DNA from: a bacterium
GTDB lineage: Bacteria > Electryoneota > AABM5-125-24 > Hatepunaeales > Hatepunaeaceae
Direction: 5' to 3'
Length of the DNA: 35,892 nucleotides
Assembly (NCBI GenBank): GCA_021734165.1
Contig: JAIPJL010000020.1
Coordinates: 1-35,892, forward strand
Position 1 is the first letter of the stretch; each line of letters opens with the position of its first letter. The notes under the pieces were generated by a model, which saw only the letters and a list, made by a program, of their open reading frames with translations, ran no database searches and was not told the origin of the DNA. The translations under genes and the position numbers were made by a program. Of the stretch, positions 9,693-35,892 are shown in pieces.

Positions 9693-12600
9693 ATGAATAC
9701 ACAAAAGCCTAATCTTGCTTATCTTTTAACGCTTTTTCTTGCGCTTACTTTTACAGTACAGCACTTAAGCGCTGGATTAACTTCTTCAACCGAAGGGCTG
9801 TCCACCGGCAATTTCATTGCCCTGACCGTAGATTCTCCGGTTCAATGCAATATCACTGAGAGTAGCTCTACCATAGAAATGTCGGTAAACTTCTCAGATG
9901 CAATTAACATTAATGATGTTCAGGAAACTCATCAATTGCCTGTTCTCGCTCGCTGGATCAGGATTTCTGAGCGTGGTAATCCGGAGTTAGAATTTTCTGC
10001 CGTTAACACAAGACGTATTTCCGGAGAAGCGCCGGTCATTGATGGAAACCATACCGGAATATATCCTCCAGAGTCTGTCGTGATGAGTCAACCGATGATC
10101 ATGCGTGGAATCAGGGTAGTAAAACTGACTCTATATCCAGTCAGATGGGATTATGCCAGTGAAGAATATGTCATTTCACAAGGACTTAATGTTAATATCA
10201 AAAATGTAGGTGGTCAAGGTGTTAACGAGGTTGAGTCCCTTGACAGGCAGCCATCACAAGGATTTGATCGCATGATTGATGCGCTTCTCGTAAATCCTCC
10301 CCGCCGTGATGATCCTGTTAATTACCTTCCGGGCGGCTATCTGCTCGTGGCAGATGATAATTATCCTGATGTAATTAATGAATTTGCCGATTGGAAATTC
10401 GCATCCGGTCACCCGGTTCAGATATTAACATTTGATCCGGGAGCTACAGATGAAGTCCAGCTTAAAGAAATGATCCAGGATGTTTACCGCGAATTTAACT
10501 TTGAATATTTGGTCTTGTTTGGTAATGAAAACGCAGATACTCCCTGCCGGATACCATTCAACACTGATGCGTATTATGATATTTTCTTCGCTCAACTCGA
10601 AGGTGATGATCCGCTTGCTGATGTTACCGTAGGTTCATTTAACTGCATGGATGAAGATAACCTGACCTGCGCTGTCAGACGCGCTATATCATATCAATAT
10701 GAACCTTACACGGATGATCTCGATTGGTACACTATCGCCGGCGTCGCTGCCGGTGAATGTAGCGTTCCTAATGATATGTCACCGTCTTATACTACAAAGT
10801 GGGTAACGGAAGTACTAAGTCGCAAGGGATTTGACGTGACAGGTAGCTACTTCGTTGACAATCGTGTAAATGATCCTACTCCCATGGTGCGCGATCTATA
10901 CAATAACCGTTGTAATTTTATTTTGGTCAGGGCTCATCAGAATGATTTTGATGCGGACGAAATAGAAGCAACAGGCGTTTATCCTTTTCATTTCCTGGTC
11001 AGTTCATCAACCCTGACAGGCGCTTTCAATCGCGCTTTCAGAATGGGAACTCCCGACGATATGCGCGGTCCTTCCGCTGGATTCGGACACAACGGCAGTC
11101 CCCGTACAAACGTAGCCAATGCTATCGCAGGAGGCTTCATTGAGAGTACATTTTTGTTTAAAATCGGCTGCTATGGCTGGGCACGAAACTACACCATTGC
11201 CAATCTTGCTCGTGTGATGCCTGCCGATGACGACGATTATAGATACGGTTATTATTCAAGCTGGCGCTATTATGGCGATCCGGGACAGGATTGCTGGGTA
11301 GGAGTTCCTCGTCAACTCACCGTTTCGCATCCACAGAGTTTTGATCCTGATCAAACGATATTCTCAGTCAATGTTATAAATGCGGATAATGAGCGTCCCA
11401 TATCCGGCGCTGTCGTCTGTATTTCTCAAGTCGATGGCATTCAGTTTGTCAGACAAACCAATGCGGAAGGAAATGCTCAATTTACATTTGAATCTGGTGA
11501 TCTTAATGAGAACGAATTGAATATTATGGTCACAGGAGATGGATTACTTCCAAACAGACAAACTATTGAATCGGAAGATGTGGATATACTTTTTGTAACA
11601 GAAGAAATTGTGCTTAATGATGAAGAAGGTGGAAATGGTGATGGAATTGCATCACCTGGTGAAACGCTTACTGTATCGATGTCCCTGTTCAACCGTGGTG
11701 CAAGGGAATACAGAAATGATATGGTAAATCCGGATAGGATTGAGCTTTTTAGTCTTTCTCCCTGGGCGGAAGCCAACGGCGAAGTCAGAATGCCGAATGC
11801 TATTAATCAAAATGGATCGTTTGAGATCGAGGATGGATTTTCGCTGCAAATCCTGGAAGGATGTCCTAATGATGAAATTATTGATATCAACGTCTGGGTT
11901 GGATCAGAAGTAAACGCAGGTTTGGAATCCGGACTTTCAATTGATATCGAAGCACCATCACTTGAGTTTGAGGATATTGAGTTTATAAATAATCTGGAAC
12001 CGGGTTCAGATACTGAGTTTTCCGTATTCCTCACTAACAAAGGACATGTAAATACAGAAGAACTTGAAGCACGCCTTATGTCAATGTCTCCATTTATTTC
12101 TGTTACGAATGCGGCAGCGGCTTATGCGCCAATCGAGATTGATGACATAATTGAGAATGAAATACCTTTCAGAGTTGAAGCAGATGAAAACACTATCCCT
12201 GGTTCCATGGCGGAGTTCATGCTTATCCTCGAAGGCGATCCGGGAGTAATAGATACAGTATATTTCTCCCTGCCGGTTGGTGAAGCTGTTGAAGGTGATC
12301 CTCTCGGACCGGACAAATACGGATATATTGCGCTCGATGACGATGATGAAGATATTGAATGGTCGAGAGCGCCGGATTATGAGTGGCTCGATATAAATCA
12401 TTACAACGGTGAGATTCAAGGTGATCTGCTTGAATTGGGTGTTCACGAAGAGGAGGATTATTCCGTTCTCGTTGATTTGCCTTTCGATTTTACTTATTAC
12501 GGAGAAGATTACCGGCAGATTACCGTTTGCAGCAACGGCTGGATCGCCATGGGCGATCAAACTGAACTTGTCAATCAACAGAACTGGGTGATGCCAGGTT

Positions 12601-13850
12601 TCGACGGCGCTTTCGGTATGATAGCGATTTTCTGGGACAGGCTCTATATGGAAACACGCTCAGACGGTGTATTTACGTATCATGACGCTGATAATGGTCG
12701 ATTCTGTATTATGTGGGAAACAGGTGTTCACGTAGATGATGAGTGGCAGCCAAATATCTTTGAAGCTATGCTATATGATCCCGAACAACGCGAAACTCCA
12801 ACTGGTGATAGTCAAATACTAATGCAGTACAACACGGTTAACAACAACCAGGACGAATGGGAAGCCAATGCAAGTTGCACCGTTGGAATTTCGTCACCGG
12901 AAGGATTGGACGGTTTGACATACACATATTGGGGAGACTATCCCGCTCAGTGTGCTCCGCTTGAAGGCAGAAGAGCTATACTATGGACGACAGTTGCTTA
13001 CGAATGGGAAACAGGCTCTCTTTCTGGAAATGTAACACGCTATATCGACTCCACCGCTGTAGCCGGCGCTTCGGTAAGAACATCCAACGGTTTTGAAACC
13101 GTAACCGATGAAAACGGTGATTATGAGCTATTGGGAGTAACCGCAGGTACTTTCGATCTTACTGTAGCAGCCGAAGGCTACGGTGGATTAACCGAAGAGG
13201 ATATTGAGCTTGAAGTTGATGCAGAGTTGGAGTACAATTTCGTGCTACCGCATTCATGGATGGAGTTTGATAAAGATAGTTTATATAATTGGATTGGAGA
13301 TGATGTTATAGAAAGTGACCGTTTGACAATCTCTAACATTGGAAATCTTGATTTAGATTTCAGTATCACGATAGATAGCGATTATGAAATTTATATCGAA
13401 CCAGAGGAAGGAAGCATTGAATCAGGGAATAATCAAGTAATTTCGTTTGATATTGAAAATTTCATTCTAAGACCTGGTCACTATGAATATGAATTGGTAA
13501 TTAACAATAGTTCACCCGAACATACTGTAGTAGTACTATTTATTATTGATATACTAAGCGTTGATGAAGAAGAACTTACGATACCAACTGTCTTCTCCTT
13601 ATCCGAGCCTTATCCAAATCCGTTTAACTCATCAACTACCATCCGCTTCGGATTGCCAAAGGATTCCGATGTCAGCGTTCAGTTGTTCGACCTTACCGGA
13701 CGGAGGATCACAACATTGACTGAAGGACGCTATAAGGCTGGTTGGCATGACGCATTGGTTGATGCATCGGGACTTGCCACCGGAATATACTTTGTACGTA
13801 TGGAGGCGGGTGACTTCAAGTCGATAAAACGATTGTTGCTGGTAAAGTAA
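9693..13850 (+). CDS. Peptidase C25 (gingipain-like) secreted protein with carboxypeptidase-regulatory-like domain and type-A T9SS C-terminal sorting domain
   Basis: Signal peptide; propeptide-like N-terminus; C25-like 'YLLVADDNYPDVINEFADWKFASGHPVQILTFD...FEYLVLFGN'; 'GSLSGNVTRYIDSTAVAGASVRTSNGFETVTDENGDYELLGVTAGTFDLTV'; C-term 'YPNPFNSSTTIRFGLPKDSDVSVQLFDLTGRRITTL...GIYFVRMEAGDFKSIKRLLLVK'. Confidence 0.85.
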   Translation: MNTQKPNLAYLLTLFLALTFTVQHLSAGLTSSTEGLSTGNFIALTVDSPVQCNITESSSTIEMSVNFSDAININDVQETHQLPVLARWIRISERGNPELEFSAVNTRRISGEAPVIDGNHTGIYPPESVVMSQPMIMRGIRVVKLTLYPVRWDYASEEYVISQGLNVNIKNVGGQGVNEVESLDRQPSQGFDRMIDALLVNPPRRDDPVNYLPGGYLLVADDNYPDVINEFADWKFASGHPVQILTFDPGATDEVQLKEMIQDVYREFNFEYLVLFGNENADTPCRIPFNTDAYYDIFFAQLEGDDPLADVTVGSFNCMDEDNLTCAVRRAISYQYEPYTDDLDWYTIAGVAAGECSVPNDMSPSYTTKWVTEVLSRKGFDVTGSYFVDNRVNDPTPMVRDLYNNRCNFILVRAHQNDFDADEIEATGVYPFHFLVSSSTLTGAFNRAFRMGTPDDMRGPSAGFGHNGSPRTNVANAIAGGFIESTFLFKIGCYGWARNYTIANLARVMPADDDDYRYGYYSSWRYYGDPGQDCWVGVPRQLTVSHPQSFDPDQTIFSVNVINADNERPISGAVVCISQVDGIQFVRQTNAEGNAQFTFESGDLNENELNIMVTGDGLLPNRQTIESEDVDILFVTEEIVLNDEEGGNGDGIASPGETLTVSMSLFNRGAREYRNDMVNPDRIELFSLSPWAEANGEVRMPNAINQNGSFEIEDGFSLQILEGCPNDEIIDINVWVGSEVNAGLESGLSIDIEAPSLEFEDIEFINNLEPGSDTEFSVFLTNKGHVNTEELEARLMSMSPFISVTNAAAAYAPIEIDDIIENEIPFRVEADENTIPGSMAEFMLILEGDPGVIDTVYFSLPVGEAVEGDPLGPDKYGYIALDDDDEDIEWSRAPDYEWLDINHYNGEIQGDLLELGVHEEEDYSVLVDLPFDFTYYGEDYRQITVCSNGWIAMGDQTELVNQQNWVMPGFDGAFGMIAIFWDRLYMETRSDGVFTYHDADNGRFCIMWETGVHVDDEWQPNIFEAMLYDPEQRETPTGDSQILMQYNTVNNNQDEWEANASCTVGISSPEGLDGLTYTYWGDYPAQCAPLEGRRAILWTTVAYEWETGSLSGNVTRYIDSTAVAGASVRTSNGFETVTDENGDYELLGVTAGTFDLTVAAEGYGGLTEEDIELEVDAELEYNFVLPHSWMEFDKDSLYNWIGDDVIESDRLTISNIGNLDLDFSITIDSDYEIYIEPEEGSIESGNNQVISFDIENFILRPGHYEYELVINNSSPEHTVVVLFIIDILSVDEEELTIPTVFSLSEPYPNPFNSSTTIRFGLPKDSDVSVQLFDLTGRRITTLTEGRYKAGWHDALVDASGLATGIYFVRMEAGDFKSIKRLLLVK

Positions 13851-23720: not shown

Positions 23721-25835
23721 ATGAAATACTCACGTCTATCATTCCTATTTATCCTGTTTGTCCTGATATTTTATACTTCTTCGCTTACTGCAAGGACTGA
23801 AATTCAGCGGATCGGCTGGACGATGAATCTATGGGCACGTGTTGTAGATATAGATATTCAAGGAGATTATGTGTATCTAATTGACTACCAAACAGGAATT
23901 ATCGTCATGGACGTTTCCGATCCTGCTAACCCGAAATGCGTGGATGTTTTTAACAATCCTGAAAAGTCAGATGGCATTCTAATTAACAGAGAGCGAGCCT
24001 ATGCTTCATCTGATCATGGTGCGATGATTCTAGATATCAGCGATCCTGAAAATGTTCGTCAGATTGGATATATAGATGAGAATTATCAGATATATGGTGG
24101 TTCAATAATGAATGATGTTGGTTATTTCGGCAGGTATATTGTAGATTTAAGTGATCTGGATCATCCTCTTACAACTTCAGATGATGAGATTCCATACTCG
24201 GTTTATGATACCGATGTTGATACGAATTATTATTATGTCGGAGGTCCGCAATATTTTTATATTTACAATTTATCCAATTTGGAAGATCCAAGACGTATTG
24301 GTTATTGTGAATTAGAAAGAGGACTTTCCGTACAAGCTGCTGGGGAATACATTTACGTAGCTACTTCAAATGGAGGATTGAGAGTCATCGATGCTACACG
24401 TCCCCAAAGACCGAACGTCATCGAGTCGGATACGGATACTCTGACCAATGTCTGGGTTGTGAAAACTGCTGGTGATTATGCTTATGCGGGAGGTTCTTTC
24501 GGACTATGCTCTGTGGATATTTCAGATAGAAGTCATCCGGTGTGTCTTAACGCGACAGGAACGCGGGTAAGGAGATTAGCTCTGCAGAATAACTATGCCT
24601 ATGGCACTGATCAGGACAAGCTTATGATTTTCGATATTTCAGATCCAGATAATCTCGTGCAGGTTTGCGATCATATGGAAGACAGGGGTGCAAGAGCGGT
24701 GGATGTGGTCGGTAATCTGGCTTATGTATCGTCAATCGGTTCGGACAGTCTTGGCTTGTACGTTTTGAATGTATCCGATCCTGCTAAACCGGAAATAATT
24801 GGTATTCTGAATAATAGTAAAAGGATGTATGAGATTGAAATCAGAGGTGATTATGCTTATACCGCCGCTTGGTCGAACGGTTTTAGGATAATAAATGTCG
24901 CTGATCCAGACAACATGTTTGAGATATATGAAAATCGATTTCATTATGCACAGCGTGTTACTCTAAATGGAGATTATGCTTTTGTTTCGACTAATAACGG
25001 GCGTAATTGCTATGAGCTTCATATTTTCGATATCTCTGATCCTGAAAACTGCGAGGAAATCCATGTAATGGAGGGAGAGTTCTGGACGTGCGCATCATCG
25101 GATGATCTGCTTTATGTATCGACTCCTGATTCGGGAATGCAAATATACAATATCAGCAATCCGGCTGAACCGGAACGAATTGCCAGCTATATGACATACA
25201 ACCGTGTTGAAGACATAGAATTATCGGACAATTTATGTTTCATTACAACAGGAGAAACGGGATTGAGAATTCTCGATGTATCGGTGCCTTCGGAACCGCG
25301 CTCAATAAGATTTTATAATACAATTGGAACAGCTTACGATATTGAAATAGAGGATAATCATGTTTATATATGTGATGGTGAATACGGTTTTCTTGTGCTC
25401 GATATTACTGACCCTGAACAGCCCGTAGAAATTGGTTATTCCTGTCAACCATTACAAGCAGAAAAAATTGAAGTTGAAAATGGTCTGGTATTTATTCCGG
25501 AAAATTACAGACTTGAGATTTATGACGCCCGTCTGGTATTGGGTGTAAAGAAAGAAAATATCAAAATACCAGATAATTATGAACTCCTGACCGCCTACCC
25601 CAATCCCTTCAACTCAACAACAACCATCACTTACGGACTCGCTAAATCAGCCCCTACGCGATTGATGCTCTATGATCTCACCGGACGCGAGGTTTTAACA
25701 CTATATGAAGGATTTAAACAGGCGGGTTGCCATACAGCAACTTTAACAGCGGGTGATCTGGCATCAGGACTATATTTCGTGAGGTTGAATGCAGGTGGAT
25801 TCAGGCAGTCAAGGAAGGTTGTGCTGGTCAGGTAG
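23721..25835 (+). CDS. LVIVD-repeat beta-propeller secreted protein with type-A T9SS sorting domain
   Basis: Signal peptide; about 14 repeats of ~40 aa with '(D/N)YAY....GL.(I/V)(I/V)D(I/V)SDPENP..IG'; C-term 'LTAYPNPFNSTTTITYGLAKSAPTRLMLYDLTGREVLTL...GLYFVRLNAGGFRQSRKVVLVR'. Confidence 0.85.
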   Translation: MKYSRLSFLFILFVLIFYTSSLTARTEIQRIGWTMNLWARVVDIDIQGDYVYLIDYQTGIIVMDVSDPANPKCVDVFNNPEKSDGILINRERAYASSDHGAMILDISDPENVRQIGYIDENYQIYGGSIMNDVGYFGRYIVDLSDLDHPLTTSDDEIPYSVYDTDVDTNYYYVGGPQYFYIYNLSNLEDPRRIGYCELERGLSVQAAGEYIYVATSNGGLRVIDATRPQRPNVIESDTDTLTNVWVVKTAGDYAYAGGSFGLCSVDISDRSHPVCLNATGTRVRRLALQNNYAYGTDQDKLMIFDISDPDNLVQVCDHMEDRGARAVDVVGNLAYVSSIGSDSLGLYVLNVSDPAKPEIIGILNNSKRMYEIEIRGDYAYTAAWSNGFRIINVADPDNMFEIYENRFHYAQRVTLNGDYAFVSTNNGRNCYELHIFDISDPENCEEIHVMEGEFWTCASSDDLLYVSTPDSGMQIYNISNPAEPERIASYMTYNRVEDIELSDNLCFITTGETGLRILDVSVPSEPRSIRFYNTIGTAYDIEIEDNHVYICDGEYGFLVLDITDPEQPVEIGYSCQPLQAEKIEVENGLVFIPENYRLEIYDARLVLGVKKENIKIPDNYELLTAYPNPFNSTTTITYGLAKSAPTRLMLYDLTGREVLTLYEGFKQAGCHTATLTAGDLASGLYFVRLNAGGFRQSRKVVLVR

Positions 25836-28180: not shown

Positions 28181-30631
28181 ATGAAAACTTCACACTTGTT
28201 TCTCTTCATGCTGATTCTCACTTTGATAACCATTCCATGCATCGCACAGGACCATGAAAATGTTGAATTGGTTGGAAGATTATACAATCAGTGGGATTAC
28301 GCCTATGACGTCGTTGTGATTGACGATTTTGCTTATGTTGCTTCCGGGCGATCCGGTTTGCAGATTGTAGATGTTTCGCATGTTGAACATCCGGAAGTTA
28401 TAGGATATTGGGATGAAAACCGAGGAATTGCATCCAACGTCGCTATTCATCGTAACTATGCTTACATAGCAGATGGGGATGGAGGTTTAGGCATTGTCTC
28501 CGTTGCCGATCCTGAAGATCCGTATGAAGTAGGATACTGTGATTCAGTTGGACGAGTCAGTGGAGTAGCAGTTTCCGGTGATTATGTTTGTATTGCCGAT
28601 TCAAGGGGAGGCTTTAGAGTTATATCTGTTGAATATCCTGAAGATCCGCAAGAAGTAGGATACGTTGAAATTCAAAGCGCAAAAGGGATTGCTGTTTCTG
28701 GTGACTATGCTTATGTATGTGTCCAACAAGGATTGCATGTTATCTCAATTGCTGATCCTGAAAATCCTGAGGAAGTGGGATTCTGTGAAACTGAGCACAG
28801 CGCCAGGAGCGTTACTGTATCGGGAGACTATGCCTATGTGACTACTTCTCTATGTTTGTGTGTCATCTCAATTGCCGATACTGAAAATCCGGAAGAGATT
28901 GGGCGCCGTTATACTCATGGATCAGGCATTGATGTAGTGGTTTCCAATGGCTATGCTTACTTAGCGGTTGGTGACTGTGGCATGGTAGTCATCTCAATTG
29001 AAGATCCAGAAGATCTTTATTATGCAAGATATTGTGACACTCCGGATTATGCAAATGGGATCGCTGTTTCAGGTGATTTAGCATACGTTGCTGACAGGTA
29101 TGGCGGTTTACGAATCATCACCATTGCCGATCCTGAATATCTTGATGAGGTTGGATGCTATGAACCTAACGGATATATCGAGGATATTACCATATCCGGA
29201 GACTATGCTTATTTAGCTTCCGGAATCAGTGGTTTAAGGATTGTATCAGCAGCGAATCCTGAACATCCGGAGGAGGTGGGATGCTGTGACACACCTGGAT
29301 ATGGTTATGGCGTTGCTGTATCCGGTGATTTAGCATACGTCGCGGATGGGGATAGTGGTTTAGTGGTTATCTCCGTTTCAAATCCGGAGTATCCTGAGAA
29401 AATTGGGCACTGTAAAGCGCCTGAGAATGCTAGAGAAGTTGCTATTTCCGATGATTATGCTTACGTTGCTGACGGAATAACATGTTATTTGCGTGTTATG
29501 TCGATAGTCGATCCCGAGCATCCTGAAGAAGTGGGAAGTTGTGAAACGCATGGATGTGCTTTAGGAGTAGTGAGTTCGGGAGATTATGCTTATATAGCAG
29601 GTGATCAGGCAGGTTTGCGCGTGATAACCGTTGCCGATCCGGAAAATCCGCAAGAAGTGGGATACCTTGATACACAGGGGCATGCCTGTGACGTAGCAGT
29701 TTGCAATGACTATGCTTATATTGCAGACAAAACCCGTGGTTTACGAATCATCTCGATTGCCGATCCTGATAATCCAGATGAAATCGGTTATTATCATACA
29801 CCTGGAAATGCTTATGATGTCGTTGTTTCAGGTGACTATGCTTATGTTGCCGACGAAGACTATGGTTTGCGTATCATCTCAATAGCAGATCCTGAAAATC
29901 CGCAGGAAGTTGGTTATTATGACACACCAGGAGCTGCATATGGAGTAGCGGTATTTGAAGATGGTTTAATCTATTTAGCAGATAAAATAAACGTAGGTAT
30001 TTACCGTTTTTGGAAGAACGGAATACCTCCTTATATTGATCTATCGGCAGACACTCTGAACTTCAACCAAGTTGAGGTTGACTCGTCTGGCGCGATGATT
30101 TTAACTATTTTAAATACCGGCAATATAGAATTAACAATCTCTGATATAATCATAGAAGGTGACCGGTTTAACTCAGACTTTGATTCTCTATTCGTTATTG
30201 AACCGGATTCAAGCCACGATGTGATGGTTCGCTTCATGCCAAATGAAATTGGAAGTTACACTGGAATTCTGACAATTATTTCTGATGATCCGATTTATGA
30301 TTCGTTGACAGTTGCTTTAATTGGCGTCTGCCCTGATGTGGTTATTGAAACTCAGGATTTTACACCTGATAAGTTCAGATTATTCCCTGCCTATCCTAAT
30401 CCCTTCAATTCCTCAACAACTATCTGCTTTGACGTTCCGGAAAACAGTGATATATCAATAACGTTGAATGATATAAACGGCAGACAGGTAGCAACATTAC
30501 TTGATAACCATCTGACTGCCGGAAGTTACAGTCTTTCATGGAATGCGAAGGATTATCCTGCGGGAGTGTATTTATGCAGGATGGAAGCGAGTGGATTTGA
30601 TCAGACAAGGAAGCTTTTGTTGGTCAGGTGA
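28181..30631 (+). CDS. LVIVD-repeat beta-propeller secreted protein with Ig-like (choice-of-anchor/HYDIN-like) domain and type-A T9SS sorting domain
   Basis: Signal peptide; 14 repeats such as '[32 protein letters not shown]'; '[42 protein letters not shown]...[22 protein letters not shown]'; C-term '[40 protein letters not shown]...[22 protein letters not shown]'. Confidence 0.87.
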   Translation: [816 protein letters not shown]

Positions 30632-30836
30632 GGAAATATTAATTACAAGCTAAAAAAGTGTTCTATATCACACCATTTTCATCAAAATAAAGTAACTTAA
30701 AATGGTAGTTACTTGACATTTGAAGATGGTCTTATCATATTATATACTGATGAGTTGTCTTTAACGCCATGATTTCATGGTATGCGTAATTTTTAGTTGT
30801 TTTACATTTAATTTTGCCTCTTAACAAGGTAGAACG

Positions 30837-33800
30837 ATGAAATCTCCAGCTTATGGTTTACACGTCCTGATTTTAACTTTTCTCTTAATCTCTTGTTTAC
30901 AAGCGGAAATCCTCAACGTTCCCGACGATCATGAGACCATCCAGGCTGCTATAGATGCGGCTGAGGATGGTGATACCGTTTTGGTCGATCCGGGTGAGTA
31001 TGTCGAAAACATCGACTTCAATGGTAAGAACATTACCGTCGCCAGCCTTTATCTGATAGATCCGAATGATGATTATATTAATTCAACAATCATTGATGGT
31101 GATGAGAATGGTAGTGTTGTTACGTTTGAGAATGAAGAGACAGAAGATGCAGTTTTGACTGGTTTTACAATTCAGAACGGAGCTGCGAGAAACGGAGGTG
31201 GGATTTGCTGTTTAGAATCATCACCTACAATAAGCTATTGTGTAATCATGGATAATTTTGCACAGAGTTATGGAGGTGGTATTTATTTTAGACAAGTAGA
31301 TATGATAATCGAATGCTGTTACATTATCAATAACCATTCCCCGATAAACTCGGGATACGGTGGATTCTATTCATTATGCTCAGATATAACCTTTGATCAC
31401 TGTATTATTTCCGATAATGGAGTCGGTGAAAATACAAATACTTTCGTAATACACGCTTCAAATAATACTTTCATTAATTGTACTTTTTCTAATAATTCAT
31501 CTAACAATGATGTTTTTATACGAATAAATTCAGAATCCGTAGTTTCCTTTGAGAATTCGATCATTTGGCTAAACTCTGCAGGATGTATCTCGTTGACTGA
31601 TGACTGCGTAATTACATTTTCCTACACTAACTTTGAAGGTGGGCAGGAGAATATCTCCTCCAACGGAGGTGAAGTCAACTGGGGTGAGGGCAACATTGAC
31701 GATGATCCTCTGTTCTCTGATCCCGACAACGGTGATTATCACCTGACCGAAAACTCTCCCTGCATAGACGCCGGTGATCCCGACTCCCCCGAAGATCCCG
31801 ATGAAACAAGAGCCGATATGGGAGCTTATTATTTCGACCAGAGAAGAGATGATGAGATCGAATGGACTGAGCATGTGATTGATGGTGATTTTGATGGAGC
31901 TTATGATGTTGATGTTGCAGATATTGATGGCGATGGAGATATAGATGTTGTGGGAGTTGCAGAAGATGATAATACAGTTGCATGGTGGGAGAATGACGGT
32001 AATGAGGAGTTCCAGCGCCACGTGATAGATAATAATTTCACTCGCGGTCGAGTTGTACTGACAGTAGATTTTGACGGTGATGGTGATATTGATGTTATTG
32101 CCGGTGCAGCAACGCGGGGAGGTCAGGTTAAGTGGTATGAGAATAATAATGGTGATTTTGAGGGTCATGTAATCGATGATGAAATTTATGTTAATGCTCT
32201 TTTCGCAGAAGACATTGATAGTGATGGAGATATAGATTTATTGGGATCATGGGAGCAACCAAGAGTAGTGGTAGAAACGCTCTTTTGGTGGGAGAATGAT
32301 GGTGAGCAGAATTTTGAAGTGCATTATGAACGCGCACCAAGCAGAATTCAAGATGTAGTTGTACTTGATATTGACGATGATGGTGACATTGACATATTAG
32401 CATGCACGGAATCCAGAGATGAATCGGTCATATGGTGGGAAAACGATGGCAGTCAGGATTTTTCAGAAGAGAGTATGCATATAATATGTGAAGATATTAG
32501 TAATAGCAGTACTCTTTTCCCAGTCGATTTTGATGACGACAATGATATCGATATAATTTTGGGCACAGATCAAAGTCAGGTTTACTGGCTTGAGAATAAT
32601 GGAAATGAAAATTTTGAATATCACTTAATCATGGATGATCTTGAAGGTGTAACTTCAGTTTATGTTGTTGACTTAGATTTTGATGAAGATCTTGACGTTT
32701 TAATATCCAAATATGGAGAGGAAGGTAACTATATCACCTGGATGGAAAACCTTGGTAATGATGAATTTTCAGAAAATGTTATTGATGAAGATTTTAATGG
32801 CTGCTGGTCCTTAAAAGCAGTCGATTTAGATCAAGATGGAGATTTTGATTGTGTCGGTTCGTCAAGGTTTGAAGACAGTATAACCTGGTGGGAGAACAAC
32901 CTCAATCCTCCGATTCCCGATATTGCTGTTGAACCTGATGCTCTTGACTTTGGTGAAGTGAATGTTGATGAAATATCTGAGCAGACCTTTACGATTACGA
33001 ATAATGGTGAAGCGGATCTGATTATAAGTGAAATTTCTACTGAAGGTGATTATTTCGCTGTCGAATTTGAGGATGAATTTTTACTTGAAACAGACCAGGA
33101 AGTTGAAATTACTGTCACATTCTCTCCTGAAGAGGAAGGTGAATTTGCAGGTGTAATCACTATTATTTCCAATGATCCGGATGCGCGGGAGGTAGAGGTT
33201 ACGCTTGCGGGTATCGGCAGAAGGGACGATGAGATTGAATGGACGGAGCATGTGATAGATGGTGATTTCGACGGCGCTTATGATGTTTATGCTGCAGATA
33301 TTGATGGTGATGGAGATATGGATATAATAGGCGTTGCCTTTGATGGCGGTTATAGCGCCTTTTGGGAAAACAACGGTAATGAAGAGTTTGAACGTGTAGT
33401 GATTGATGTTCATTTTAATTACGGTGTTGTAGTGAAAGCAGTCGATTTAAATAGCGATGGCAATATCGATGTTATCGCAGGCACGGATGGACAAGGAAGA
33501 CTGGTAAAATGGTATGAATATATTGAAGGTAACTTCTGGGGACATGTTCTAGAGAGTGGTATTCCAAACGGTGTTCACTCGCTTTATCCACAGGATATCG
33601 ACAGCGATGGAGATATTGATATTCTGGCAGGCAGATTTAATAATGAAAATGCGCTTATGTGGTGGGAAAATGACGGTGAGCAGAACATGGAGAGATATTG
33701 GGATATAGATGGATGCCAGAGAATTCAGGATGTTGCAGCACTTGACCTTAACGAAGATGGTGAAATTGACTTTCTTGCCTGCAGGGATTTATCTGATGAA

Positions 33801-35892
33801 GCTGTTATCTGGTTGGAAAACAATGGCAATGAGGAATTTAATCAAAACTGCAGGCATGCGATTTTTAGTGGAGTTGAAGGCTGCCGGACGATCTTCCCTG
33901 TCGATTTTGATGGAGATGAGGATATTGATATAGTATTAGGTTCTGACACAGAAGGTTTAATTTTCTGGCTTGAGAATGATGGTGATGAGGATTTCGAGTA
34001 TCATCTTATTGCTGAAGGATGCGAGGGAGTAACTACTGTTTATATGGTCGATTTTGATCTTGATGATGACCTTGATGTTTTAGTGTCATTGTGTGAAGGT
34101 GATGATAATATAATCTGGTTAGAAAACCATGGTGATAATGAGTTTTCCCGATATCTTGTTTCAGATGGATTTGGTACACCCTTGTCTGTAATCGCTGATG
34201 ATGTAGATGGTGACGGTGATTTCGACATTGTTGGCGCTTCTTATGATGATGACGAGATCACCTGGTGGGAGAATAACATTATTGAGATTCCACATCCGGA
34301 TATTGCTGTTGAACCAATGGAGCTTGATTTTGGTGAAGTCAATGTCAACGAATCAGAGGAACTCAGTCTCACGATCATTAATAATGGTGATGAGAATCTT
34401 ACGGTTGAAGGTTTTTCTGTGGAGGGTGAGTATTTTGAAATCAATAACGAAAATGGCTTCATGCTCCGACCCAATCAAAGAAGTACAAGAACTGTCACTT
34501 TCTCTCCCGAAGAGGCAGGTGAATTTGCAGGAATAGTAACCATTACTTCCAACGATCCGCAGAGCCGAGAAGTGGAAGTTGCGCTTGCAGGGATCGCTGT
34601 TCACGCTAATATCTTCACAGCACACCAGATACACAGAAATTCCGCCGGTGCGCGAGCTATTGCTGCAGTTGAAATGAACAACGATGGAAATATTGATATT
34701 GTAGCTTGTGAAATGGAAGATCTTTACTGGTATGAGAACAATGGCGAGCAGGAATTTGAAGAGCATCATATAGCGCAAAACAGTGACGATATTCATTATC
34801 CAAGAAAGGTGGTTGTAATAGATTTCGATGGTGATGACGATCTGGATATTTTCCTGACCAACTATACAGGTAACTCCATCTATTGGTATGAGAATAGCGG
34901 CGATAATGAATTTGAGGAACATGTCGTAGATGATGACTTTAGAGCCCCACGCGGGCTTAATGCGACAGATTTTGATAACGATGGAGACGTTGACGTTATA
35001 GCAGGAGGTGTTGCCGGTGATGGGCTTGCCTGGTGGGAAAACGATGGTGATCAGAACCTGGAAAAACATGTTATAGGTGGAGACGAAGAGAATTCATGCT
35101 ATTCAATTTATACCGTTGATTATGATGAAGATGGGGATATGGATGTCATTGCAGGAGATTTTAATGGACAGATTATATTTTGGGAAAATGACGGTGATCA
35201 GGAATTTGACAGACATATAATCGAACAATCACAACACCCAGGGTCGGTTTATACAATCGATCTGGATAATGACGCTGATCTTGATGTTCTTACAGCATCT
35301 TACTCGATAAATTTAATTTTCTGGCTTGAGAATGAGGGTAATGGAGATTATAGTAATCATGTCATTAATAATCATATCAGTAGATGTTACAGTGTGTCTG
35401 CTGCTGATTTCGATCTGGACGGAGATACAGATATACTGGCTGCCGGTGATGATGAAACGTGTTGGTGGGAGAATGATGGAGAAATGGGCTTAACTGAACA
35501 CGCCGTTCCTGATAATTTAGCGAATGCTATGAGTGTTGTCCCCATCGATCTCGATAAAGATGGTGATTTTGACATTCTCGGAGGAGCGCTAAATGCCGCA
35601 ACCACCTGGTGGGAAAACAATCTTAATCCACCGATTCCCGATATTGCTGTTGAACCTGATGCTCTTGACTTTGGTGAAGTGAATGTTGATGAAATATCTG
35701 AGCAAACTTTCTCTATTAGCAATAATGGTGAAGCTGATCTAATTGTCAGTGAAATTTCTATCGAAGACGATTACTTCTCAGTCGAATTTGAAGAAGAGAT
35801 AGTCCTTGAACCAGACGAAGAGGTTGAGATTACGGTCGCTTTCGCTCCTGAAGAGACAGGTGAATATGCCGGATTAATTACCATATTTTCCA
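30837..35892 (+). CDS. Giant secreted repeat protein (N-terminal part): signal peptide, right-handed beta-helix-like region, then three modules of seven FG-GAP/VCBS-like blades plus Ig-like domain; truncated at right window edge
   Basis: Manual translation from ATG 30837 (MKSPAYGLHVLILTFLLISCLQAEILNVPDDHETIQAAIDAAEDGDTVLVDPGEYVENIDF...) shows no in-frame stop to the window end. Blades of type 'FERHVID.....AYDVYAADIDGDGDMDIIG....WWENDGNEE'; Ig-like 'PDIAVEPDALDFGEVNVDEISEQTFTITNNGEADLIISEI...TFSPEEEGEFAGVITIISNDPDAREVEVTLAGI'. Confidence 0.92.
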   Translation, partial: MKSPAYGLHVLILTFLLISCLQAEILNVPDDHETIQAAIDAAEDGDTVLVDPGEYVENIDFNGKNITVASLYLIDPNDDYINSTIIDGDENGSVVTFENEETEDAVLTGFTIQNGAARNGGGICCLESSPTISYCVIMDNFAQSYGGGIYFRQVDMIIECCYIINNHSPINSGYGGFYSLCSDITFDHCIISDNGVGENTNTFVIHASNNTFINCTFSNNSSNNDVFIRINSESVVSFENSIIWLNSAGCISLTDDCVITFSYTNFEGGQENISSNGGEVNWGEGNIDDDPLFSDPDNGDYHLTENSPCIDAGDPDSPEDPDETRADMGAYYFDQRRDDEIEWTEHVIDGDFDGAYDVDVADIDGDGDIDVVGVAEDDNTVAWWENDGNEEFQRHVIDNNFTRGRVVLTVDFDGDGDIDVIAGAATRGGQVKWYENNNGDFEGHVIDDEIYVNALFAEDIDSDGDIDLLGSWEQPRVVVETLFWWENDGEQNFEVHYERAPSRIQDVVVLDIDDDGDIDILACTESRDESVIWWENDGSQDFSEESMHIICEDISNSSTLFPVDFDDDNDIDIILGTDQSQVYWLENNGNENFEYHLIMDDLEGVTSVYVVDLDFDEDLDVLISKYGEEGNYITWMENLGNDEFSENVIDEDFNGCWSLKAVDLDQDGDFDCVGSSRFEDSITWWENNLNPPIPDIAVEPDALDFGEVNVDEISEQTFTITNNGEADLIISEISTEGDYFAVEFEDEFLLETDQEVEITVTFSPEEEGEFAGVITIISNDPDAREVEVTLAGIGRRDDEIEWTEHVIDGDFDGAYDVYAADIDGDGDMDIIGVAFDGGYSAFWENNGNEEFERVVIDVHFNYGVVVKAVDLNSDGNIDVIAGTDGQGRLVKWYEYIEGNFWGHVLESGIPNGVHSLYPQDIDSDGDIDILAGRFNNENALMWWENDGEQNMERYWDIDGCQRIQDVAALDLNEDGEIDFLACRDLSDEAVIWLENNGNEEFNQNCRHAIFSGVEGCRTIFPVDFDGDEDIDIVLGSDTEGLIFWLENDGDEDFEYHLIAEGCEGVTTVYMVDFDLDDDLDVLVSLCEGDDNIIWLENHGDNEFSRYLVSDGFGTPLSVIADDVDGDGDFDIVGASYDDDEITWWENNIIEIPHPDIAVEPMELDFGEVNVNESEELSLTIINNGDENLTVEGFSVEGEYFEINNENGFMLRPNQRSTRTVTFSPEEAGEFAGIVTITSNDPQSREVEVALAGIAVHANIFTAHQIHRNSAGARAIAAVEMNNDGNIDIVACEMEDLYWYENNGEQEFEEHHIAQNSDDIHYPRKVVVIDFDGDDDLDIFLTNYTGNSIYWYENSGDNEFEEHVVDDDFRAPRGLNATDFDNDGDVDVIAGGVAGDGLAWWENDGDQNLEKHVIGGDEENSCYSIYTVDYDEDGDMDVIAGDFNGQIIFWENDGDQEFDRHIIEQSQHPGSVYTIDLDNDADLDVLTASYSINLIFWLENEGNGDYSNHVINNHISRCYSVSAADFDLDGDTDILAAGDDETCWWENDGEMGLTEHAVPDNLANAMSVVPIDLDKDGDFDILGGALNAATTWWENNLNPPIPDIAVEPDALDFGEVNVDEISEQTFSISNNGEADLIVSEISIEDDYFSVEFEEEIVLEPDEEVEITVAFAPEETGEYAGLITIFS

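Follow-up and report, generated by a model that had tools for sequence, protein, structure and literature searches.

The stretch of DNA analysed here (the window) is an entire contig of 35,892 bp (G000:C137) from a fragmented metagenome-assembled genome of 3.40 Mb, in 169 contigs and 86% complete. At its right end lies a partial giant open reading frame (ORF) on the forward strand (30837–35891), which has homologues and is stop-free across 1,685 codons from an ATG at 30837, its last complete codon ending at 35891; the nearest in-frame stop upstream of the ATG is at 30822. Because the window is the whole contig, the ORF is cut by the end of the assembly. A preliminary description had stated that frame 3 is stop-free from this ATG to the edge, that the ORF track shows only short antisense or out-of-frame ORFs there, and that the large ORF does not appear in that track, presumably for want of a stop within the window. 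All three points were reproduced: recomputation found no in-frame stop, the default listing for 30837–35892 consists of ten short ORFs, all antisense or out-of-frame and including the three named earlier (31569–32168 −, 34353–35069 −, and 33709–33933 +), and the 1,685-aa ORF is listed once open ends are allowed, the default lister omitting open-ended frames. At a threshold as loose as E ≤ 1, Pfam gave no match for any of the three named ORFs.

Upstream of the giant ORF, LVIVD-repeat propeller proteins with a Por_Secre_tail are encoded at 28181–30631 and 23721–25835. A protein with an N-terminus similar to that of 28181–30631 is also encoded upstream of the giant gene of Ca. Hatepunaea (L140:766–2775). 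At the other end of the window, an ORF at 3–692 is cut by the left contig end and by eye resembles the HD part found at the C-terminus of RNase Y; the shorter ORF listed as 51–692 is only its tail.

The giant gene is preceded by a block at 30655–30754 (+) that is 82% identical over 100 bp to the block upstream of its closest paralogue, on contig C116, and that contains a promoter-like TTGACA-17-CATATT at 30713–30741. The protein begins with MKSPAYGLHVLILTFLLISCLQA (residues 1–23; 30837–30905, +), which reads by eye as the signal-peptide-like start that had been proposed. It contains a lipobox-like LISC, where the C116 paralogue has LISF, and given this motif the signal may be of type SPI or SPII. 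The beta-helix-like region proposed to follow also held up: residues 23–335 (30903–31841, +) are modeled by AlphaFold as a right-handed parallel beta-helix (pLDDT 84.5, pTM 0.85) and match DUF5123. Foldseek related the model to pectin methylesterases and a lyase at E 3e-5 to 1e-3, pectate lyase beta-helices being among the matches, at TM-scores too low for a catalytic family to be assigned from the model. A beta-helix with 59% identity to this one is found in a related genus inside a longer frame (L139, on G003:C51), where it follows cadherin-like domains, so that modules are shuffled between giant genes.

The remainder of the visible protein, residues 343–1685, consists of three units in strict alternation, each a propeller followed by an immunoglobulin-like (Ig) domain. 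Propeller 1 (31863–32915, +) has seven FG-GAP/VCBS blades, all of which contain a D-rich calcium-loop motif, as identified by profiles, loops and a structural model; it is followed by a HYDIN/ASH (choice-of-anchor D) Ig domain (32916–33218, +), identified by PF22544, NF012200 and the same model. The profiles and loops likewise define a seven-bladed propeller 2 (33240–34286, +) and a seven-bladed propeller 3 (34614–35636, +), and profiles place a second HYDIN/ASH Ig domain at 34287–34598 (+) and a third at 35637–35891 (+), the last cut by the contig end after ~85 residues. The preliminary description, which had recognized the large hidden ORF, the signal-like start and the beta-helix, missed this alternation. 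It had suggested HMM searches, and when these were run FG-GAP_3/VCBS (PF13517) matched 17 stretches of the ORF (2.7e-89, 294 bits against a cut-off of 26.9), while the HYDIN Ig family PF22544 (1.3e-38, 131.6 bits against 25.5) and choice_anch_D NF012200 (1.3e-47, 160.8 bits against 45) each matched three. The Asp-rich loops number exactly 21, or 3 × 7, and are spaced ~50 aa apart within each propeller. An AlphaFold model of unit 1, computed with 26 homologous units, reached a pLDDT of 92.4; its propeller comprises 28 strands, and an Ig sandwich comes after it. Model and loops together fit the VCBS pattern of seven four-stranded blades with an Asp-rich AB loop. Its best solved Foldseek neighbours were CRTAC1, BBSome subunits, integrin alpha-V and aldos-2-ulose dehydratase; Phmmer against solved structures (PDB) found none related by sequence. 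Ig 3 and Ig 1 are identical at 79 of 96 residues (last propeller residues counted), whereas unit 3 as a whole is only about 45–47% identical to unit 1. Since the Ig domains are closer to each other than are the units that contain them, Ig domains and propellers were probably duplicated or converted separately. Such regular arrays of seven-bladed propellers would offer a clean natural example of repeat-unit duplication and mixing.

The C116 paralogue, which shares both the N-terminal sequence and the upstream block with the window gene, is complete at 7,015 aa. Four beta-helix matches are followed in it by nine propeller–Ig units and then by further beta-helix and cadherin-like domains, with a Por_Secre_tail at the C-terminus. 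Giant ORFs of similar style, with 4,341–7,015 residues, occur elsewhere in the same genome, and six of the seven ORFs longer than 4,000 aa examined in the bin run off a contig end. The best named hits were to Ca. Hatepunaea meridiana and Ca. Electryonea clarkiae, of the phylum Ca. Electryoneota. The Ca. Hatepunaea meridiana relative has 11 propeller–Ig units, the first of which shares 65% identity with C116 unit 1, and Ca. Electryonea also has a propeller array, a protein of 5,028 aa with seven propellers. Giant proteins of this sort are a speciality of the Hatepunaea family, whose Electryoneota members spend much coding capacity on a giant surface-protein family.

We looked for the continuation of the window gene in the rest of the bin. 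The last 25 bases of the contig recur nowhere else at up to two mismatches, and the last 893 bases match paralogous repeats only; this search yielded no contig that continues the ORF. Contig C160, whose minus strand begins inside a similar Ig domain (GAYEAAVIISSNDP), was considered and rejected: its sequence differs over the stretch that the two contigs would share, leaving no overlap, although C160 may lie beyond the window contig with a gap between the two. Gene order gave no readable downstream neighbour either, because the contigs of the nearest relatives (G003:C51 and L042) are open at both ends. ORF lists that require a stop, combined with short-read assemblies, conceal the largest genes of uncultured bacteria, and recognition of their modules lets such cut fragments be assigned to the giant surface-protein family.

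The open frame is a genuine gene under purifying selection, as its codon-position bias, the third-position substitutions between its internal duplicates, its dN/dS values and its homologues attest. Given the base composition of the ORF itself, log10 P for a frame staying open over 1,685 codons by chance is about −54, and G+C at codon positions 1, 2 and 3 is 0.56, 0.32 and 0.33. The 289-bp copies at 32883–33171 and 35604–35892 are 83% identical as DNA and differ at 12, 5 and 31 sites in codon positions 1, 2 and 3, respectively, and dN/dS among the three repeated units is 0.21–0.29 (NG86), rough values given that dS, at 1.6–1.8, is near saturation. It could be argued that the gene is decayed, or mis-assembled by joining through collapsed repeats, since the contig ends within a repeated Ig domain and DNA identity between internal copies reaches 83–86%. 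Such an origin is highly improbable in view of the complete lack of stops and frameshifts across 5 kb, the low dN/dS between units, and the uniform length of complete propellers, which measure 337–351 aa in the window, in C116 and in Ca. Hatepunaea alike. How far the gene extends can be judged from its relatives. Secreted proteins of 500–1,400 aa with sorting tails are common in the same genome, and proteins with a single propeller, many of them ending in a sorting tail, occur widely across FCB-group and WOR-3 genomes, relatives included, so that the window gene might be barely longer than what is visible, ending soon after 35892 with a sorting domain at about 1,800–2,000 aa. We regard this as on the unlikely side, because the paralogue that is closest by N-terminus and upstream block has 7,015 aa and related arrays extend to 9–11 units.

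Our reading of the locus, with a probability of roughly 0.75, is that it forms the 5′ portion of a giant gene whose product is exported, probably sits at the cell surface, and acts in adhesion or ligand binding. An extracellular polysaccharide-degrading enzyme, in which the beta-helix would be catalytic (pectate-lyase- or pectin-esterase-like) and the propellers and Ig domains would be binding modules, would account for the Foldseek matches of the beta-helix to pectin methylesterases and to PL6 and PL9 lyases, and AUDH and lectins do contain VCBS propellers (PMC8023676). Those matches, however, have low TM-scores (about 0.3–0.5) and 12–16% identity, no Pfam polysaccharide lyase or pectin esterase family matched the ORF, and the beta-helix is repeated four to five times in sister proteins, as expected for a structural or binding module; a degradative enzyme is decidedly unlikely. 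VCBS propellers are known to act also as parts of enzymes or toxin scaffolds, and VCBS-core proteins bear signals, sometimes have multiple propellers and include Ig-like domains (PMC8023676); this literature supports the class assignment rather than any particular ligand.

The adhesion or ligand-binding reading suggests the following path for the protein. A Sec signal peptide would bring the giant protein into the periplasm; the missing C-terminus, if it carries a type A sorting domain, would direct export by the T9SS, with PorU removing the tag. That such a domain ends the window gene is a reasonable expectation by analogy, because the C116 paralogue and four other secreted proteins within the window end in Por_Secre_tail. 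The genome contains the PorU sortase (660 bits). The translocon of the T9SS, SprA, did not turn up in the 86%-complete bin (best match 18.8 bits) and is present in 10 of 10 relatives searched. Outside the cell, calcium would rigidify each propeller and the Ig domains would serve as spacers, so that the chain would form a long, multivalent fibre, with polysaccharide or protein partners held on the faces of the propellers and in the grooves of the beta-helix. Recombination between repeated units would let the array itself expand and contract.

Many sister giant proteins carry a recurrent, arginine-flanked and hypervariable linker, RD-x(1–9)-R-x-L-R-[3–71 variable]-P-x-R-D, which is located where modules meet and in cadherin-like loops; in a narrower form of the motif, the residue between R and L is S, T or Q (RD..R[STQ]LR). 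Carriers are found on G000:C66, C145, C7 and C116 and on G007:C357, from a genome in the same family (for example L099:14214–14324 −, L013:1823–1936 +, and L142:11059–11169 +). When 402,408 residues of long frames were scanned with a regular expression, 28 distinct matches emerged, compared with none in a reversed control and one in a three-fold shuffled control. A profile, built on examples from two of the nine family genomes, found matches in all nine, 47 of them in the genome of the window, and in one of 17 others (a single weak match). The linker was also considered as a conserved DNA element, an idea that was dropped: the codons of its fixed residues vary freely, so that conservation is at the protein level. 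One long linker core in Ca. Hatepunaea (L142:9610–9785) is built from a dispersed, partly inverted repeat, inserted in-frame, with more than 50 matches in that genome. Since a linker core can contain such a repeat, the site seems to tolerate arbitrary inserts.

The giant proteins in the genome of the window are strongly acidic and extremely depleted in lysine. Lysine makes up 0.6% of the window ORF and 0.3–0.8% across the giant ORFs (window, C116, C7, C145, C44, C23, C30 and C66), while Asp and Glu together account for 18–24% and the predicted pI is near 4; arginine makes up 15–25% of residues within linkers versus 2–4% outside. Matches to C25 (gingipain-family) peptidases that exceed the cut-off number 18 in this genome; one lies in the window, at 10338–10799, within a T9SS-tailed protein encoded at 9693–13850. 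The visible part of the window ORF has no RD..RxLR..PxRD linker. We offer linker cleavage as a hypothesis: the giants of the family would be a processed surface system, in which gingipain-like C25 peptidases cut the linkers and the products assemble non-covalently, and the unseen downstream part of the window gene would carry linkers, as C116 does. Taken as a whole, this scheme is tentative and, in our estimate, unlikely. As a finding, the family-restricted linker may be more novel than the ORF itself.

How does this protein compare with known systems? Its N-terminal region has the parallel beta-helix fold of right-handed beta-helix proteins (model pLDDT 84.5, and Foldseek). Like choice-of-anchor D/HYDIN-ASH proteins (NF012200, PF22544, PF15780), it scores well above the curated cut-offs, over three stretches, but here the domain serves as a spacer between propellers. 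With T9SS type A cargo (Por_Secre_tail/TIGR04183) it is connected by the tail on neighbouring genes and on the complete paralogue, its own C-terminus lying outside the assembly. The Giant1–5 proteins of Apilactobacillus kunkeei (PMC12863079) are alike in size class (3,000–8,000 aa) and in having several copies per genome; they come from a different phylum, and the likeness is one of size and copy number.

The propellers invite two closer comparisons. With the integrin alpha propeller and its bacterial counterparts (PMC3192720) the window ORF has in common seven blades with DxDxDG-type calcium loops, and integrin alpha-V is among its Foldseek neighbours; the calcium-type loop is present in all blades, as in the bacterial integrin-like forms (PMC3192720). 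Identity to the integrin alpha propeller is only 10–13%, however, no membrane anchor is seen in the window ORF, and the FG-GAP/Cage consensus PF01839, the criterion for the integrin type, is absent among the 23 Pfam families that match the ORF at E ≤ 0.001. We found no description of the array in Electryoneota in the open-access literature searched, a body that leaves out most subscription journals and preprints. The VCBS core group (PMC8023676) shares with the window ORF signal sequences, several VCBS propellers, Ig-like domains, the DxDxDG-type loop and seven blades. In contrast to that group, the arrays described here are very long and regular, with three units in the window and 9–11 in close relatives, alternate with HYDIN/ASH Ig domains, and are headed by beta-helices. 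The protein is therefore of a kind already known, the multi-propeller VCBS proteins, and it is the length of the array that is notable.
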